Shown piece by piece: positions 171-60,159 of a DNA stretch of 64,000 bases (position 1 is its first letter; the number at the start of each line of letters is the position of its first letter). The notes beneath the pieces were generated by a model, which saw only the letters and a list, made by a program, of their open reading frames with translations, had not been told where the DNA came from and did no database searches. The stretch comes from Ensifer sp. LC163 (GTDB lineage Bacteria > Pseudomonadota > Alphaproteobacteria > Rhizobiales > Rhizobiaceae): assembly GCF_001695855.1 (NCBI RefSeq), contig NZ_MBSS01000001.1, positions 310,001 to 374,000 on the forward strand, given 5' to 3'. The translations under genes and the position numbers were made by a program.

Positions 171-276
171 TGCTGCATGTTTCCTTGAATCGTAGCCGTT
201 TCAAGGACAAAAACATGCAGCAATTCAAAGTGCTACAGCGACCTTTGCGCGTCTGATAAGACGCGCGGCGCTGTAG
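171..276 (+). repeat. Two-hairpin palindromic repeat, family 1 (catgttt subtype)
   Basis: Hairpin 1 has arms CTGCATGTTTCCTTGAA and TTTCAAGGACAAAAACATGC. A short linker leads to hairpin 2, which runs from CTACAGCG to CGCTGTAG around GCGCGTC/GACGCGC. Compared with most copies, ATAATT/AATTAT in hairpin 1 is replaced by ATGTTT/AAACAT on both arms, a compensatory change. It lies downstream of the partial CDS. Confidence 0.85.
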
Positions 277-1582: not shown

Positions 1583-1720
1583 ATGTCTGCCATCCTCGAG
1601 ATCCTGATCGACGCGTTGCGCCTGTTGACCTTTCAGCCGCCAACGCGCCAGACACGCCACACCGGATCGGACGAGGCAGCTTGTGCGGGTGCACGCTACA
1701 GCGCCGCGCGTCAAATATGA
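1583..1720 (+). CDS. Small ORF (45 aa) divergent from the LysR gene
   Basis: An ATG at 1583 is preceded at ideal spacing by a strong Shine-Dalgarno sequence (AAAGGAGG, 1567-1574). The product begins MSAILEILIDALRLLTFQPP, an amphipathic helix-like start, followed by a polar tail. The last eight or so residues and the TGA come from the family-1 repeat starting at 1697, so the original C-terminus may have been replaced by the insertion. I do not recognise a family. Its position, divergent from a LysR regulator, suggests it could be the regulated partner. The alternative is a chance ORF, but the ribosome site is unusually good for chance. Confidence 0.45.
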   Translation: MSAILEILIDALRLLTFQPPTRQTRHTGSDEAACAGARYSAARQI

Positions 1721-1802
1721 CGCGCAAAGGACGCTGTAACTCCTTAAATCTGCTGCATAATTTTCTCCTTAAATCGATTCCGATTTAAGGAATTATGCAG
1801 TA
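1697..1802 (-). repeat. Two-hairpin palindromic repeat, family 1, complete, TA-flanked
   Basis: In the reverse orientation, hairpin 2 (CAGCGCCGCGCGTCA ... GACGCGCAAAGGACGCTG) comes first and hairpin 1 (CTGCATAATT ... AATTATGCAG) second. The element is bounded by TA at 1697-1698 and TA at 1801-1802. It supplies the C-terminus of the small ORF starting at 1583. A decayed fragment (GACGCGCAAAGGATGCTG) follows at about 1924-1941. Confidence 0.9.
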
Positions 1803-15072: not shown

Positions 15073-15124
15073 AAAAGCAGCGATATATCCGCTTCCTCCC
15101 CCTTTTCTTGGGCGCCGGAAAGAC

Positions 15125-15475
15125 CTATATGACACATGCCGTCTTCGGGCGGCTATGGCAATAAACGGGCGGTGAAATAAACCCATTGGACCCGGGGGCG
15201 GTACCCGGCGCCTCCACCAAAAACCGGTCGATATGTCGATGACCGGCTTTTGATGGGGGCGAAATAGGATCGACAAGGGCGTAAAGATCGACTTTTTGCT
15301 CGGCATTGTACCACCGTTATCGGGCTAAACTTATAGTTGCAAACGACAACTATGCTGAAGCACGTCTCGCTGCCTAACGGCGGTGCGACACTTCAAATCA
15401 AGTCCTTCCGGGTAGCACCGTAAGGCGGGGTCCGAAGGCACCTGGCAACAGAAGCCTTCACCTTCTCCCCCGCTT
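15125..15475 (+). ncRNA. ssrA: tmRNA, circularly permuted two-piece form
   Basis: The acceptor piece comes first and ends CGGCGCCTCCACCA at 15218. A short hairpin spacer (ACCGGTC/GACCGG, 15219-15254) is expected to be removed. The coding piece begins GGGGGCGAAATAGGATCGAC at 15255, whose 5' end pairs with GCCTCC of the acceptor. The tag frame 15339-15377 reads ANDNYAEARLAA and then TAA. This permuted two-piece arrangement is typical of alphaproteobacteria. tmRNA rescues stalled ribosomes and marks the broken protein for proteolysis. The outer ends are approximate; CTATAT at 15125-15130 might be the -10 element. sspB, whose product recognises ssrA tags, starts about 100 bp downstream on the same strand. 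Confidence 0.93.
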
Positions 15476-15573: not shown

Positions 15574-16089
15574 ATGGGCCAGGACCACATTCGCTACGAC
15601 ATTCTGGCGCAGGACGCGCTTCGCGGCGTCATCCGCAAGGTGCTGACCGAGGTTGCAGCCACCGGCCACCTGCCCGGCGAGCACCATTTCTTCATTACCT
15701 TCCTGACCGGCGCGCCGGGTGTTCGCATCTCGCAGCACCTGAAATCCAAGTATCCCGAGCAGATGACCATCGTCGTGCAGCACCAGTTCTGGGAACTCAA
15801 GGTTTCCGAAGCCGGCTTCGAGATCGGTCTCTCCTTCTCCGACACACCGGAACGGCTCGTCATTCCGTTCAATGCCATTCGCGGCTTCTACGACCCCTCG
15901 GTCAATTTCGAACTCGAATTCGACGTGGCGACGGCCGAAGAGGAAGAGGCCGAATCGGCGGAGATCACCGCCTATCCCGTGCCCGAAACCGATGGCGAAG
16001 TGCCGCCCAAGGACGCGGAGAAATCCGGCGACGCCAAGAACGGCGGCGGCTCGGTGGTCTCGCTCGACTCCTTCCGCAAGAAGAACTGA
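15574..16089 (+). CDS. sspB: SspB, ClpXP adaptor for ssrA-tagged proteins (alpha type)
   Basis: A 171-residue SspB-like adaptor. The N-terminal helix (IRYDILAQDALRGVIRKVL) and the Sm-like core (HHFFITFLTGAPGVRIS; MTIVVQHQFWELKV; ERLVIPFNAIRGFYDPS) span residues about 1-112. A disordered acidic linker and a short basic C-terminal peptide (VVSLDSFRKKN) follow, expected to dock on ClpX. It would deliver tmRNA-tagged substrates to ClpXP; the tag encoded 200 bp upstream starts AND, the end that SspB proteins usually contact. It is followed after 20 bp by a DUF4169 gene and then an RHH gene, an arrangement I associate with rhizobia. Confidence 0.92.
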   Translation: MGQDHIRYDILAQDALRGVIRKVLTEVAATGHLPGEHHFFITFLTGAPGVRISQHLKSKYPEQMTIVVQHQFWELKVSEAGFEIGLSFSDTPERLVIPFNAIRGFYDPSVNFELEFDVATAEEEEAESAEITAYPVPETDGEVPPKDAEKSGDAKNGGGSVVSLDSFRKKN

Positions 16090-16412: not shown

Positions 16413-16495
16413 CAAAAACGATTCCGGCACAAGCGCTTACGCCCGCTTTCCGAATCAAACCGCCAACGACTTGAATCAATCTGCGAGCTCCGGCG

Positions 16496-16732
16496 ATGAT
16501 CCGAAAACACTCCGCCACCTTGCACGGACACCGCACCAGCTTCTCGCTGGAGGATCCGTTCTGGCTGGAGCTGAAGACGATCGCGGCCGCCCGTGCCATG
16601 CCGATCGCACAGCTGATCGTCGAGATCGACGATGTGCGTGGCGCCGACAGCAACCTGTCTTCGGCGCTCCGGGTCTACGTTCTCGACTGGATCAAGTCGA
16701 ATACAGAGCGGTCAGCGGCCGGCGACATGTGA
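16496..16732 (+). CDS. Ribbon-helix-helix domain protein
   Basis: A 78-residue protein of the arylsulfate-sulfotransferase-like RHH (RHH_4) type. IRKHSATLHGHRTSFSLEDP carries the beta-strand, and FWLELKTIAAARAMPIAQLI gives the first helix and turn; SSALRVYVLDWIK is the second helix. Such proteins usually dimerise and bind DNA, though many are uncharacterised. It follows sspB-DUF4169 on the same strand after a decayed repeat. Its 3' end overlaps by about 21 bp the tail of the convergent GGDEF remnant, so that pseudogene's decay leaves the RHH gene intact. The target is unknown. Confidence 0.85.
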   Translation: MIRKHSATLHGHRTSFSLEDPFWLELKTIAAARAMPIAQLIVEIDDVRGADSNLSSALRVYVLDWIKSNTERSAAGDM

Positions 16733-17420
16733 CGGCTCCTCGCCTCGATCATCAAGGCCGCTCCCGAATGCGTCTGTCAGTGCGCCGGCAAGACCCTCGC
16801 GCAGCTGGCTCGCCATCGCCCTGATGCCGCACGGCAGCCGCAAGGACTCCACCAGGCAAACCCGGTTGCGTCCCGTGTTCTTGGCGAGATAGAGCTGGTC
16901 GTCGGCGATCTTGAAGATATCCGCATACTGCGCGGGATAGGTGAACAGCGCCACACCGACGCTGACCGTCACCGGATCTGCGCCCAGCGCGATCGCCTGT
17001 CCGCGCTCTGCCACCGCCAGACGGATGCGCTCGGCCATCGCCCCGATCGTTTCGGGGCGGGCATGGAAAACGAACACGCCGAACTCCTCGCCGCCGTGAC
17101 GCCCCACGACTGCATAATTCCTCAAATCGGAATCGATTTAAGGACGAAATTATGCAGCAACTCAAAGTGTTACAGCGACCTTTGCGCGTCTAATTAGACG
17201 CGCGGCGCTGTAGACCATTGTTGGCCACCGCCTCGCGCATGCCGGTTGCTATCGCCACCAATGCCCGATCGCCGGCGAGATGGCCGTGGTGGTCGTTGAT
17301 GCGCTTGAAGTGGTCGGCATCCAGCACCATCAGCGCCGACGTGGTCGGAGAGGGTTTGACGTCCTGCTCTGCAAAGAACGCGGTGACATCCGATGTGAAG
17401 GCGGCACGATTGAGTCCTGC
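16712..17420 (-). pseudogene. Diguanylate cyclase (GGDEF) remnant interrupted by a family-1 repeat
   Basis: The upstream half (17420 to about 17213, minus) reads NRAAF, then [40 protein letters not shown], the N-terminal half of a GGDEF domain. The downstream half (17107 to 16712) continues VGRHGGEEFGVFVF, VTVSVGVALFTYPAQYAD and LYLAKNTGRNRVCLVE to a normal end. Between them lies a roughly 103-bp repeat that adds stop codons. Removing it joins the halves in frame as ...NNGLVGRHGGEEF, the expected family sequence. The 5' end is also lost: a TGA precedes NRAAF and no sensor domain is recognisable upstream. The gene once made cyclic-di-GMP and is now inactive, unless the 3' half is translated alone. 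Confidence 0.88.
17108..17212 (+). repeat. Family-1 two-hairpin repeat inserted in the GGDEF gene
   Basis: CTGCATAATTCCTCAAATCG ... AAATTATGCAG, linker, then TTACAGCGACCTTTGCGCG ... CGCGCGGCGCTG followed by TA. The right flank is TA (17211-17212) and the left flank is GA (17108-17109), read as a mutated TA. This copy interrupts a coding sequence and gives the clearest evidence that the family moves. Confidence 0.92.
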
Positions 17421-17842
17421 TCAAGAGACGTCATGCCACCCCCCGTTGCAAACCACACTGTGATGGCCGGAAGCTAACTCCGGCTCAATCAATCCATTAG
17501 AATTTTAGGGGTTTCCGCATTTCGCCCCGTGAATGCGGGCTTTCCGCGCGATGGTCGAATTCCATTGGGAATCGGCAATTGCGGCCCAGCCTCGCGAATC
17601 GACGGCACCAATCTTCGACGAGCACGGGATCCAAACGGTCAAAAACACGGACTTCTGATTGCAGATTGCCTCGACCTCAGCAGATTATGTGTGCTTGGCG
17701 CAACAGGCCTCTCAATTCCGCAAGGTGCGACGCATGGTTCAGCACGAATAGCCTTGCTTAGAATATTCTAATTCAAAACAATGACATGACTGTCGGCGGG
17801 TCGCAACCGCTGGCATTCGTGAGACACATGAGGGGTGGAATC
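17421..17842. other. Intergenic region, 422 bp, lower GC
   Basis: No convincing gene is present. This is where the 5' part of the GGDEF gene should be, but I see no sensor sequence in it. TTAGAATATTCTAA (17758-17771) is a perfect 14-bp palindrome 72 bp before the beta-barrel start and may be an operator or part of its promoter. Confidence 0.4.
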
Positions 17843-18634
17843 ATGGGACTGTATGCTCGGATTGGTCTGGCCACGTGCTTGACCCTGTCATCGGCTGTTA
17901 TCGTCAACGCCGCCGACATCACGCCGCTTCTTGCGCCTGCCGCGCAGCCGCAGGAGACGGAGAGCGGCTGGCAGTTCACCGTTGCACCTTACTTCTGGAT
18001 CGCTGGCCTTACGGGCGATACCGCGCAGTTCGGTCTCCCGGATGTGCACATCGATTCCAGTTTCAGCGATATCTTGGACAATCTCGATTTCGCCTTCATG
18101 GCCATGGGCGAGGCCCGCAACGGCCCCTACAGCATCTTCGGCGACGTGATCTATTCCAAGCTGTCGGCCGACGGCAGCACGCCGGGCGGCATTCTTGCCG
18201 ATAGCGTCGAAGTCGAATCGCAGACCTTCGTCGGGTTGCTTGGTGTCGGTTATGCGATCTACGAGGATCAATCGTCCCATCTGGATTTCGTCGGCGGCCT
18301 GAAAGTCTGGTCAGTCGATACGACGCTTTCGTTCTCCGGTGGCCTGCTCGGTGGCATCAGCCGAGACGACAGTGCGACCTGGGTCGATGCGGTCGCGGGC
18401 CTGCGCGGCGCCTACTACTTCACGCCCGAGATCTATCTGACGGGCTGGGGCCTGGTCGGCGCAGGCGGTGCAGACCTCGACTGGGATGCAGCACTCGGCC
18501 TCGGCTACAAGTTCACGGATACGATCTCGGCCGTCGCCGGCTATCGCGCACTCGGCGTCGACTACAGCAACGACGGCTTCAAATTCGACGCCGTGCAGCA
18601 CGGACCGATCCTGGGCGTCGCCATCCACTTCTGA
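17843..18634 (+). CDS. Outer-membrane beta-barrel protein
   Basis: A 263-residue exported protein. Residues 1-23 form a signal peptide ending VNA. The mature part alternates aromatic and small residues in short strands (WQFTVAPYFWIAGLTG, GPYSIFGDVIYSKL, TFVGLLGVGYAIY, HLDFVGGLKVWSV, AAYYF-like strands, ALGLGYKFTDTISAVAGYRAL) and ends in GVAIHF, a C-terminal aromatic as needed for Bam-dependent insertion. The start at 17843 follows AGGGGTGG. I cannot name a subfamily; OmpW/OmpA-like or an uncharacterised porin-like barrel are possible. It stands alone between the GGDEF remnant and the convergent asmA-like gene. Confidence 0.82.
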   Translation: MGLYARIGLATCLTLSSAVIVNAADITPLLAPAAQPQETESGWQFTVAPYFWIAGLTGDTAQFGLPDVHIDSSFSDILDNLDFAFMAMGEARNGPYSIFGDVIYSKLSADGSTPGGILADSVEVESQTFVGLLGVGYAIYEDQSSHLDFVGGLKVWSVDTTLSFSGGLLGGISRDDSATWVDAVAGLRGAYYFTPEIYLTGWGLVGAGGADLDWDAALGLGYKFTDTISAVAGYRALGVDYSNDGFKFDAVQHGPILGVAIHF

Positions 18635-24197: not shown

Positions 24198-24299
24198 TAC
24201 AGCGCCGCGCGTCAAACATGACGCGCTAAGGACGCTGTAACACTTTAAACTTGCTGCATAATTCCTCAAATCGATTCCGATTTGAGGAATTATGCAGCA
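24198..24299 (-). repeat. Family-1 two-hairpin repeat, complete
   Basis: TTACAGCGCCGCGCGTCAAA ... GACGCGCTAAGGACGCTG, linker CACTTTAAACTTG, then CTGCATAATTCCTCAAATCG ... GATTTGAGGAATTATGCAG. The CCTCAAATC/GATTTGAGG stem replaces CCTTAAATC/GATTTAAGG of other copies on both sides, a compensatory pair change. The left flank is TA and the right is CA. It lies 26 bp upstream of the FAD oxidase start. Confidence 0.92.
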
Positions 24300-24679: not shown

Positions 24680-25120
24680 ATGCTCGGTCTGCTCGCTTTG
24701 CTCACCGCCTCGGTATTCTTCGGCGCCGCCATCTACATCAACGTGGCCGAACACCCGGCAAGGCTTCACCTCGATGATCGCGCGGCCCTGGCCCAATGGG
24801 TGCCGGCCTACCGGCGAGGTTTCGAGATGCAGGCCTCGCTCGCAATCATCTCGGGCCTGCTCGGCGCTGCCGCATGGTGGCAGAGCGACAATCCGCTCTG
24901 GGGTCTAGGGGCAGCAATCATCATCCTGAACTGGCCCTACACGATGCTGTTGATCATGCCGGTCAATCAGCGTCTTGAGACAACGCGACTGGACGAGGTG
25001 AACGAGGAAACCCACGAGCTTCTCCTTCACTGGGGCAGGCTTCACGCCGGCCGGAGTGCGCTCGGCGCGATCGCGGCGGTAGTCTTTCTTGTCGCCGCCT
25101 GGCTCGGTCTTCAGGGTTAG
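24680..25120 (+). CDS. DUF1772 family membrane protein
   Basis: A 146-residue protein with four predicted membrane helices: LLALLTASVFFGAAIYINV, ASLAIISGLLGAAAWW, GAAIIILNWPYTMLLIMPV and SALGAIAAVVFLVAAWLGL. The motif NWPYTMLLIMPVNQRLE and the acidic loop before HWGRLHAGRS are typical of DUF1772. The start follows GGGAGGAGAAGG closely. A family-1 repeat lies only 7 bp after the stop and is likely to act as a hairpin at the 3' end of the mRNA. The function is unknown. It is not clearly part of an operon, since the downstream genes are convergent. Confidence 0.85.
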   Translation: MLGLLALLTASVFFGAAIYINVAEHPARLHLDDRAALAQWVPAYRRGFEMQASLAIISGLLGAAAWWQSDNPLWGLGAAIIILNWPYTMLLIMPVNQRLETTRLDEVNEETHELLLHWGRLHAGRSALGAIAAVVFLVAAWLGLQG

Positions 25121-35080: not shown

Positions 35081-36301
35081 ATGTCTTGGACAAGCACGAC
35101 ACATTGGTTGGCGGAACTGGGCCTGACAGAAGCGCGCGAGGCCGATCGGCAAGGCATACTGGTCGCCAATCTGGCGGCAGCCGTTATTGCAGTCTCGTCG
35201 AGTGGTTTCGCTGTCATCTACGCACTCTTCCAGCAACCAAGCCTGCAGGGTTTGGTGGTTTGCAATGTTCTGCTCGCGACCGCTGCCACCATCACACCTC
35301 TGTTCCATCGGTTTGGAAAGAGAGCATCGGCACTCTGGGAGTTCACCATATGTGCCGTGGCACTCACGGTCGTCAGTGCGCATCTCGGCCGGGACTCCGG
35401 GGTTTTATTCAATCTTCTGGGCGTCACACCCGTCGCATTTGCAATATTGGGCCTGGACCATTGGCGGATGGTCGCCAGCCTCGGCCTCCTCACCGCCATT
35501 GTGATCATCGTGGGAGGCATCGCCTTTCCGACGCCACTGCCCGGTATCTATGCCGACGAGAGCTTCCTCCAGCTCGTCAACGCCTCTGCGATCCTGACCG
35601 TCACCCTTCTGATGTTCGCGACCATGCACTATGCCCTCACGCTGGCGCGCGATGCCCAGATGCGTCTGAGCAATCTCATGTTGTCGATCATGCCCGCCGA
35701 GATCGTCGACCAGTTGCGCAGAGATGACCACGCCGCCACGATCAGGAAATTCGATACGGCTGCGGTGCTGCTCATCGATATCGTGCAGTTCGTCAGGCTT
35801 TCCAACGAGCTCGGTCCGGAACGGACGGTCGCGCTGCTCGACGATTTCTTCTCGCAGCTCGACGCGGCATCAGCCTGGTTCGGCGTCGAGAAGATCAAAA
35901 CGATCGGCGACGCCTATCTGGCCGCAGCGGGCGTACCAAGCGCCCATCCCAATAGCGTAGAGGCAGCCGCCGGCTTCGGCTTCCTCGCGTTCGAGATCGC
36001 CGAAAATGTCGGCAGGACGCACGGGGTCGTGCTGCATTTGCGCATCGGCATGGCCTCGGGATCCGTCACTGCCGGAGTGCTGGGCCGCACCCGCTATGCC
36101 TACGACATCTGGGGAGCACCGGTGAACCTTGCGGCACGGCTCGAAGCGATCGGCCACGCCGGGTGCATCGTCACGACGCGCGACGTCAAGGCCGCCCTCG
36201 ACGGCAAATTCGCGTTTGAAGCCGGCGAAATCACCAACATCAAGGGATTTGGCGATACGGAAACATGGCGCATGAGCCTACAGCGCCGCGCGTCTATTTA
36301 G
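35081..36301 (+). CDS. Membrane-anchored class III adenylate cyclase; 3' end supplied by a repeat
   Basis: A 406-residue protein. Six hydrophobic helices (about 27-195) form a sensor-like membrane domain. The cyclase homology domain (about 215-395) has AAVLLIDIVQFVRLS with the first metal Asp, KIKTIGDAYLAAAG with the substrate Lys and second metal Asp, and TRYAYDIWGAPVNLAARLEA with the purine-contacting Asp and catalytic Asn/Arg. The Lys/Asp pair favours ATP as substrate. The last residues (SLQRRASI) and the stop come from a family-1 repeat starting at 36279, so the natural C-terminus was probably replaced. Start ATG at 35081 has no strong Shine-Dalgarno sequence. Sinorhizobium genomes carry many such cyclases. 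Confidence 0.9.
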   Translation: MSWTSTTHWLAELGLTEAREADRQGILVANLAAAVIAVSSSGFAVIYALFQQPSLQGLVVCNVLLATAATITPLFHRFGKRASALWEFTICAVALTVVSAHLGRDSGVLFNLLGVTPVAFAILGLDHWRMVASLGLLTAIVIIVGGIAFPTPLPGIYADESFLQLVNASAILTVTLLMFATMHYALTLARDAQMRLSNLMLSIMPAEIVDQLRRDDHAATIRKFDTAAVLLIDIVQFVRLSNELGPERTVALLDDFFSQLDAASAWFGVEKIKTIGDAYLAAAGVPSAHPNSVEAAAGFGFLAFEIAENVGRTHGVVLHLRIGMASGSVTAGVLGRTRYAYDIWGAPVNLAARLEAIGHAGCIVTTRDVKAALDGKFAFEAGEITNIKGFGDTETWRMSLQRRASI

Positions 36302-36379
36302 ACGCGCAAAGGTCGCTGTAACACTTTGAGTTGCTGCATAATTCCTTAAATCGATTCCGATTTAAGGAATTATGCAGTA
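36279..36379 (-). repeat. Family-1 two-hairpin repeat, complete, TA-flanked
   Basis: TA, CAGCGCCGCGCGTCTATTTA ... GACGCGCAAAGGTCGCTG, linker AACACTTTGAGTTG, CTGCATAATTCCTTAAATCG ... CGATTTAAGGAATTATGCAG, TA. It begins inside the adenylate cyclase gene and provides its stop codon. Confidence 0.95.
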
Positions 36380-49834: not shown

Positions 49835-50219
49835 GTCAGGCATTCCGAAAGGGCTGGAGAGTGTTTCCAGCCCTGCCAACGCGCGGCGCAATCGGCAATG
49901 CAGCAACCTCGAGCGGAAGAGACGCCTGAACAGCGCCTCAGGCGATCTTCGCGGCACCGATTCACGAAAAAAGGCATTCCAGGCGGCAGCCGCTTCCCGG
50001 CTATCCCTGGATCACGATGATGGAGCGGAAAACCGCACACACCTTTCCTCAGCCAGCGCTACTGCATAATTCCTTAAATCGGAATCGATTTAAGGACAAA
50101 ATTATGCAGCAACTCAAAGTGTTACAGCGACCGTTGCGCGTCTAAATAGACGCGCGGCGCTGTAACGCCGGCTTCTCGAGAAGCAGCAGAAAGGCCCGGG
50201 AAAGCCCCGGCTTTTCCGG
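49835..50219. other. Intergenic region with a complete family-1 repeat
   Basis: The region between pepP and a small exported-protein gene. No gene is seen. The repeat occupies 50060-50164, and CCCGGGAAAGCCCCGGC (50198 onwards) just before 50220 may end the transcript of that small gene. Confidence 0.5.
50060..50164 (+). repeat. Family-1 two-hairpin repeat, complete, TA-flanked
   Basis: TA, CTGCATAATTCCTTAAATCG ... AAATTATGCAG, CAACTCAAAGTGT, TACAGCGACCGTTGCGCG ... CGCGCGGCGCTG, TA. It differs from the copy in the GGDEF gene at only a few positions. Confidence 0.95.
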
Positions 50220-50486: not shown

Positions 50487-50587
50487 CTGCATGTTTCCTT
50501 AGATCCTAGACGATTTGGGGATAAAACATGCAGCAATTCAAAGTGCTACAGCGGCATTTGCGCGTCAGACAGATGCGCGGCGCAGTA
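50487..50587 (+). repeat. Family-1 repeat, catgttt subtype, drifted
   Basis: CTGCATGTTTCCTTAGATCC ... AAACATGCAG, CAATTCAAAGTG, CTACAGCGGCATTTGCGCGT ... ATGCGCGGCGCAG, TA. The ATGTTT/AAACAT arms match the copy at 171-276. Confidence 0.85.
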
Positions 50588-60053: not shown

Positions 60054-60159
60054 TACTGCATAATTCCTTAAATCGGAATCGATTTAAGGATAAAATTATG
60101 CAGCAAGTTTAAAGCGTTACAGCGTCCTTTGCGCGTCATATTTGACGCGCGGCGCTGTA
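60054..60159 (+). repeat. Family-1 two-hairpin repeat, complete, TA-flanked
   Basis: TA, CTGCATAATTCCTTAAATCG ... AAATTATGCAG, CAAGTTTAAAGCGT, TACAGCGTCCTTTGCGCGTC ... GACGCGCGGCGCTG, TA. It separates recN from ligA and must either be read through or end the recN transcript. Confidence 0.95.

Follow-up and report, generated by a model that had tools for sequence, protein, structure and literature searches.

A palindromic repeat in a doubly broken GGDEF gene of Ensifer sp. LC163, very probably a non-autonomous mobile element of the RIME1/CIR type

The Rhizobium-specific intergenic mosaic element (RIME) was reportedly named by Osteras, Stanley and Finan in 1995 from the ExoS-ChvI two-component system. 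RIME1 is 108 bp in size and carries two palindromes. In the parts of a 2007 review that deal with small bacterial repeats, two-arm palindromes are described as abundant in alphaproteobacteria (PMC2229807). Among the families treated there are CIR, intergenic repeats with GANTC sites found in Caulobacter and Brucella; in the passages on CIR, target duplication is entered as "?", intragenic copies are said to be absent, and the mechanism of mobility is left unsettled, three points that stand there as gaps (PMC2229807). RUP, ERIC and Correia elements are presented in the same review as small, strongly base-paired repeats with TA ends and target duplication, and RUP is thought to be moved by IS630-Spn1 (PMC2229807). 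Another intergenic repeat of the same bacterial group as the element described below is Sm-4 of S. meliloti, with a copy at 24848-25053 of pSymB listed in a table of PMC2780559. The repeat analyzed here is of a known kind, and what is added is evidence on its target site together with one puzzle at its junctions.

The window, by which we mean the whole stretch of DNA analyzed (64,000 nucleotides of Ensifer sp. LC163; GCF_001695855.1, contig NZ_MBSS01000001.1, positions 310,001 to 374,000 of the forward strand), holds a GGDEF gene on the minus strand at 17420-16712 whose two halves are separated by a 101-bp element, preceded by TA and followed by TC. The preliminary description had placed a palindromic repeat of about 100 bp at 17108-17212 within this gene; the 105 bp of that interval are the 101-bp core plus both flanking dinucleotides. 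The parts of the element are as follows.

17110..17210, minus strand: palindromic element core, CAGCGCC...ATGCAG (CAGCG...GCAG), 101 bp
17211..17212, minus strand: left flanking dinucleotide TA
17108..17109, minus strand: right flanking dinucleotide TC (TA in most copies)
17171..17212, minus strand: arm 1 hairpin (helices 1 and 2); the left TA belongs to it and is paired with an internal TA
17110..17157, minus strand: arm 2 hairpin (helices 3 and 4), with a GATTC (GANTC) site in the terminal loop

The element thus consists of two hairpin arms and a linker, and its length is insufficient for a protein gene. As a single strand it forms the two hairpins with a folding energy of -51.9 kcal/mol; shuffled sequences average -23.4 (z -8.98), and none of 200 folded equally well. 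Its two ends share only about four bases (CAGC / CTGC), that is, very short terminal inverted repeats. At gathering thresholds Rfam returned two tmRNA models alone for the whole window and no match at the element.

A strict pattern for arm 2 was found at 133 places in the 6.5-Mb genome of LC163 (G000) and at none in a reversed control; this pattern is its own reverse complement, and every place therefore enters the count once per strand. For arm 1 the strict pattern gave 165 matches in the genome and likewise 0 in the control. Taken with the fold energy relative to shuffles, these counts argue that the element did not arise by chance. The arm 1 pattern is present in 14 out of 151 genomes of the bacterial family (LC163 included), and 386 plasmid records match, namely 244 of Rhizobium, 105 of Sinorhizobium, 19 of Ensifer, 14 of Agrobacterium and 4 single records from other genera, Nitratireductor among them. 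When 30 copies were aligned, 96.4% of the cells were paired (99.3 and 98.8% in helices 1 and 2, 95.5 and 93.0% in helices 3 and 4), and sliding the partner strand lowered pairing to 29-39%. Compensatory change is evident from 33 cells altered on both sides versus 12.7 in shuffles, with 0 out of 500 shuffles as high; two further measures were unremarkable: for "further pair types" the observed value was reached in 499 of 500 shuffles, and for "pairs with a change on both sides" in 101. The copies fall into two subfamilies that differ at paired positions, ATAATT/AATTAT versus ATGTTT/AAACAT. Apart from the copy in the GGDEF gene, the window contains the following copies.

173..274, minus strand: full-length copy
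1698..1800, plus strand: full-length copy
24199..24297, plus strand: full-length copy, site empty in G002, G005, G007 and G008
36280..36377, plus strand: full-length copy, site empty in G002
50062..50163, minus strand: full-length copy close in sequence to the one in the GGDEF gene (hereafter the window copy)
50487..50585, minus strand: more diverged copy
60056..60158, minus strand: full-length copy (site 370056), the clearest case, with a TA-empty site in G002, G005, G007 and G008

Elsewhere in LC163, three copies in alternating orientation occupy about 2.4 kb of one locus (G000:C1:63904-66951, L010).

How does this element compare with the described families? Compared by description and not by sequence, it resembles RIME1 in measuring about 105 bp with its flanking dinucleotides, in its two large palindromes and in its many copies on Rhizobium and Sinorhizobium plasmids. 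It differs in that the copy here lies within coding sequence. As for the ChvI-ChvG (ExoS) two-component locus, 2 out of 16 genomes carry the element inside it, between a response regulator and a kinase beside pckA (full length in G002, decayed in G015). The best NCBIfam model for the G002 kinase is ChvG (E 6e-147, yet below its cut-off), the regulator is of the OmpR type (ChvI-like), and the gene order agrees with that in PMC3687685. In LC163 the corresponding site is empty, and TC stands at the position of the G002 element. The ChvI/ChvG-like copy, together with build, size and distribution, thus points to RIME1.

The likeness to CIR is also one of description, not of sequence: as characterized in those passages of the review, CIR are about 110 bp long, with two long arms, a linker, TA ends and GANTC at the terminal loop, as in the window copy (PMC2229807). 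GANTC occurs in 38 out of 79 copies of our element, 30 of them at the loop position of the window copy, a frequency some five times the local density; the site is therefore missing from about half of the copies, unlike CIR as portrayed there. A second difference is that the window copy sits inside a GGDEF frame (of a gene otherwise broken too), whereas CIR are reportedly not intragenic. RUP, ERIC and Correia elements are likewise small, strongly base-paired and bounded by TA, but the review gives them a stem built from both ends and terminal inverted repeats measuring 7 to 24 bp (PMC2229807), in contrast to the separate hairpin at each end and the roughly four shared bases found here. Sm-4 was rejected as a relative: the element profile has no match in pSymB 20001-70000, which holds the Sm-4 copy. 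Five profile hits lie in pSymB 320001-370000, and none overlaps the Sm-5 copy at 334401-334598.

We then consider the empty alleles. The locus was searched against 16 genomes of the genus (LC163 included), and six orthologous loci were among the matches listed: G002 (Ensifer adhaerens SD006), G005 (E. adhaerens Lc04), G007, G008 (E. oleiphilus HO-A22), G013 (Sinorhizobium sp. A49) and G015 ("Rhizobiales bacterium AFS045263"). All six lack the element and align without a break through the insertion point, where they have two bases instead (GG in G002, TG in the other five), and the interruption is absent from every orthologue seen within the genus. The frames are open for 294 codons in G002 and G007 and over the aligned 275 to 277 codons in G005, G008, G013 and G015. 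The preliminary description had held that the two gene halves rejoin in frame, had called for a relative with an empty site, and had named an empty allele without a continuous frame as evidence to the contrary; no such allele was found, all six being continuous as far as aligned, and the insertion and the in-frame relation of the halves are accordingly correct.

Its proposal that the repeat family is, or recently was, mobile is supported by 46 clean comparisons with empty sites in relatives, by 26 distinct sites of the two-base kind, and by the distribution of close copies. Of 26 full-length copies scored in 420 kb of LC163, 6 reach 93% identity or more with the window copy (which is itself one of the six), and of 19 scored in a 1.15-Mb sample of four relatives none does; these figures are for unselected stretches only, and with five loci chosen for likeness they become 12/45 and 0/23. 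Genome-wide, 40 of the 44 matches listed for LC163 reach at least 93%, and the best among the matches listed for G002 reach 95 and 94%. This enrichment points to a recent burst in the LC163 lineage. We consider that a non-autonomous mobile palindrome of the RIME1/CIR type inserted into a diguanylate cyclase gene of a Sinorhizobium/Ensifer species, with a probability of about 85%, and a non-autonomous transposable element moved in trans is the best functional reading. A transposase supplied in trans would recognize the arms, and insertion would proceed by a 2-bp staggered cut and duplication, as for TA-targeting MITEs. The copy number relative to controls, the empty orthologues, the two-base gaps, the compensatory changes, the ChvI/ChvG-like copy and the excess of close copies all speak for this reading; against it stand the lack of an autonomous partner among the loci examined below, the short terminal inverted repeats, a TA in only 9 out of 26 empty sites and the TC to the right of the window copy.

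The host gene has a second lesion, the loss of its 5' part, which was overlooked in the preliminary description. The features of the gene are listed here.

17211..17420, minus strand: upstream GGDEF remnant, AGLNRAAF...NNGL, 70 codons, with an in-frame stop immediately 5' (Pfam GGDEF, E=3e-12)
16712..17107, minus strand: downstream GGDEF remnant, from VGRHGGEEF to the stop (Pfam)
17414..17415, no strand: junction of a 265-bp deletion, by alignment to the orthologues
17432..17434, minus strand: old start codon of the GGDEF gene, whose frame now stops after 34 codons

The downstream half belongs to an open frame at 17125-16712 (Pfam GGDEF, E=3e-13), the initial codons of which lie within the element. 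Between 17415 and 17414, 265 bp are absent that are present in all six relatives, with G002 as the reference. The missing piece comprises the N-terminal part beyond the initial codons, which in G002 looks hydrophobic when judged by eye, together with the beginning of the GGDEF domain, and its loss shifts the reading frame. The G002 orthologue encodes a full GGDEF domain (Pfam E 7e-33), and by the look of the orthologues the host gene would be a membrane-anchored diguanylate cyclase. Either lesion alone breaks the gene, which is therefore a pseudogene whichever event came first. The statement that the repeat had killed this diguanylate cyclase accordingly goes further than the evidence, since the independent, frame-shifting 5' deletion is sufficient on its own. 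For the GGDEF gene itself, this amounts to a routine, lineage-level loss of one diguanylate cyclase.

The insertion may predate or postdate the deletion. The deletion may have come first, the element landing later in a gene already dead and inactivating nothing, and we give this order slightly less than an even chance. It agrees with the fact that the deletion by itself removes the N-terminal part and shifts the frame, and with the apparent rarity of insertions into working genes: among 13 distinct tested sites with an empty allele (15 entries), only 2 lie in frames whose substitutions follow a coding-like pattern, the window site (third-position mismatch share 0.64) and site 307608 (0.60), so intragenic copies are the exception. 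It is not helped by the substitutions private to LC163, which show no clear pseudogene decay (10 out of 20 at third positions, versus 7 out of 12 in G002, with 15 unassigned), although these are too few, and dating of the insertion through codon-position decay was abandoned on the same ground. The reverse order, which extends the earlier reading, has the element inactivate the cyclase and the deletion follow in the dead gene; its odds, too, fall just short of even. Beyond the two lesions the frames of both halves are uninterrupted, which suggests that inactivation is probably not old, and a frame that enters the element from the upstream half first meets a stop, by eye, at a TAG in the loop of arm 1. 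Against this order it must be said that the two events carry no relative date.

Regarding the landing sites, the copy at G000:C1:307507-307608, just before the window, perhaps falls in a frame, 145 aa long in G005, that looks coding. Three plasmid copies (H1, H11 and H50) were considered as further intragenic insertions and rejected, as all three overlap only the end of a gene.

For the target site, 83 full-length hits from stretches of five genomes and from single loci were reduced to 78 distinct copies. TA precedes the core in 71 out of 78 and follows it in 60 out of 78 (TC in 5); the base before the left dinucleotide is a pyrimidine in 76 and the base after the right one a purine in 72. When anchors were set 8 bases away from the junction, 63 clean comparisons were obtained for 77 copies, 46 of them empty, 10 filled and 7 other; each of the 46 is a pairing of copy and relative, so some sites are counted repeatedly. 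With the flanks placed independently, the gap at the empty junction is exactly two bases in 33 out of 46 cases, and in the remaining 13 it is 3 bases (6), 1 base (2), 4 bases (1), 0 bases (1) or a small deletion (3). Selection for a two-base gap left 27 copies and, after one sharing a locus was dropped, 26 distinct sites. Because these 26 were preselected, the two-base target rests on the 33/46 comparison and not on them; they have a pyrimidine before the two bases in 21 cases and a purine after them in 24. Together, the two-base empties and the flanking bases indicate that the target of insertion is two bases long and lies in a YTAR-like context. Among the top-ranked literature matches on RIME and CIR, no report of a target site came up. 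The filled/empty pairs point to such a target and give one clear insertion inside a coding frame, and the target evidence makes the question of mobility answerable by a transposition assay.

A plain duplication of TA is seen at some sites. It is clearest at site 370056, where the empty allele reads ctcTAaaaaac in four relatives. In the best-matching relative, the 26 empty alleles have TA (9), AA (4), CA (4), TG (3), CG (3), GG (1), TC (1) or TT (1). Elsewhere, TA in YTAR or CTAG contexts is kept in 53 to 88% of cases between LC163 and G002, depending on the class; given this retention, 9 out of 26 is low and falls below the prediction from TA turnover on most background estimates, yet is indecisive at the lower bound. 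An unlikely alternative is that RIME1-type elements choose YNNR-like sites and show TA on both sides only afterwards, with the flanking TA either carried in by the element or written anew from its hairpin. Such a process would fit the 17 out of 26 empty alleles that are not TA, and site 610241, which is CG in two relatives with all 24 nearest bases matching. It would fit also with the mismatches between filled and empty alleles, which number 11, 12 and 9 out of 26 at the preceding base, the T and the A of the left junction, as against between 0 and 5 at each of the remaining 23 positions. Further, the nucleotide preceding the left TA tends to be the complement of internal base 43, which lies at the foot of arm 1: in 66 of the 78 copies the pairs of preceding base and base 43 are C-G 26, C-A 18, T-G 3 and T-A 19 (Fisher p 0.0005, for copies that are not independent). 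The trend is weaker in the few empty alleles with a readable base 43 (C in 5 out of 10 with G43, T in 5 out of 12 with A43), as though the junction had been rewritten, either on insertion or through subsequent template switching at the hairpin. The non-independence of the copies and the high background loss of TA in some contexts weigh against this alternative.

A search for the mobilizing transposase covered 44 DDE_3 matches in the 16 genomes, and none of the 30 DDE_3 loci examined is bracketed by element ends; nor is any of 8 IS5-type loci in LC163. The transposases of the IS630 (DDE_3) and IS5 types at these examined loci were thus rejected as partners, as they have no ends in common with the element. 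The element profile does match five stretches at three DDE_3 loci, twice at L124, once at L131 (E 3e-9) and twice at L136, and a further place shared by L200 and L203, but never at both ends of a transposase. At L131 (in G009), near position 141, an element-like stretch ends at the start of an IS-sized segment flanked by inverted repeats and lying beside a DDE_3 gene, as if an insertion sequence had targeted the end of the element. The sole three DDE_3 (IS630-type) matches of the LC163 genome lie within 8 kb (G000:C37:9024-16770).

Two other explanations of the polymorphic element were weighed against insertion in LC163. An ancestral element lost from the relatives by precise excision would leave the same empty alleles, but it requires loss with the frame restored in all six orthologues, the closest included, and sits badly with close copies enriched in LC163 and missing from the sampled parts of the relatives; we regard it as very improbable. 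A mere transcription terminator or an assembly artefact is hardly credible, for although the hairpins are strong and the locus was judged from the assembled sequence, more than 100 copies that share a linker, fall into two subfamilies, vary in presence between genomes and point to a two-base target would not be expected of a terminator.

Two observations concern the neighborhood of the gene. In the interval 16450-18600, LC163 is 96% identical to G002 across the downstream end of the GGDEF gene and the sequence past it, while the neighboring gene (DUF481, just below cut-off) and the upstream region reach only 79%; for G007 the two figures are 90 and 79%. The drop near the deletion may reflect faster evolution or recombination. 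On the other side, a permuted alphaproteobacterial tmRNA gene, recognized by the two Rfam models, occupies 15099-15462; an SspB gene (Pfam E 5e-49) comes next, at 15574-16089.
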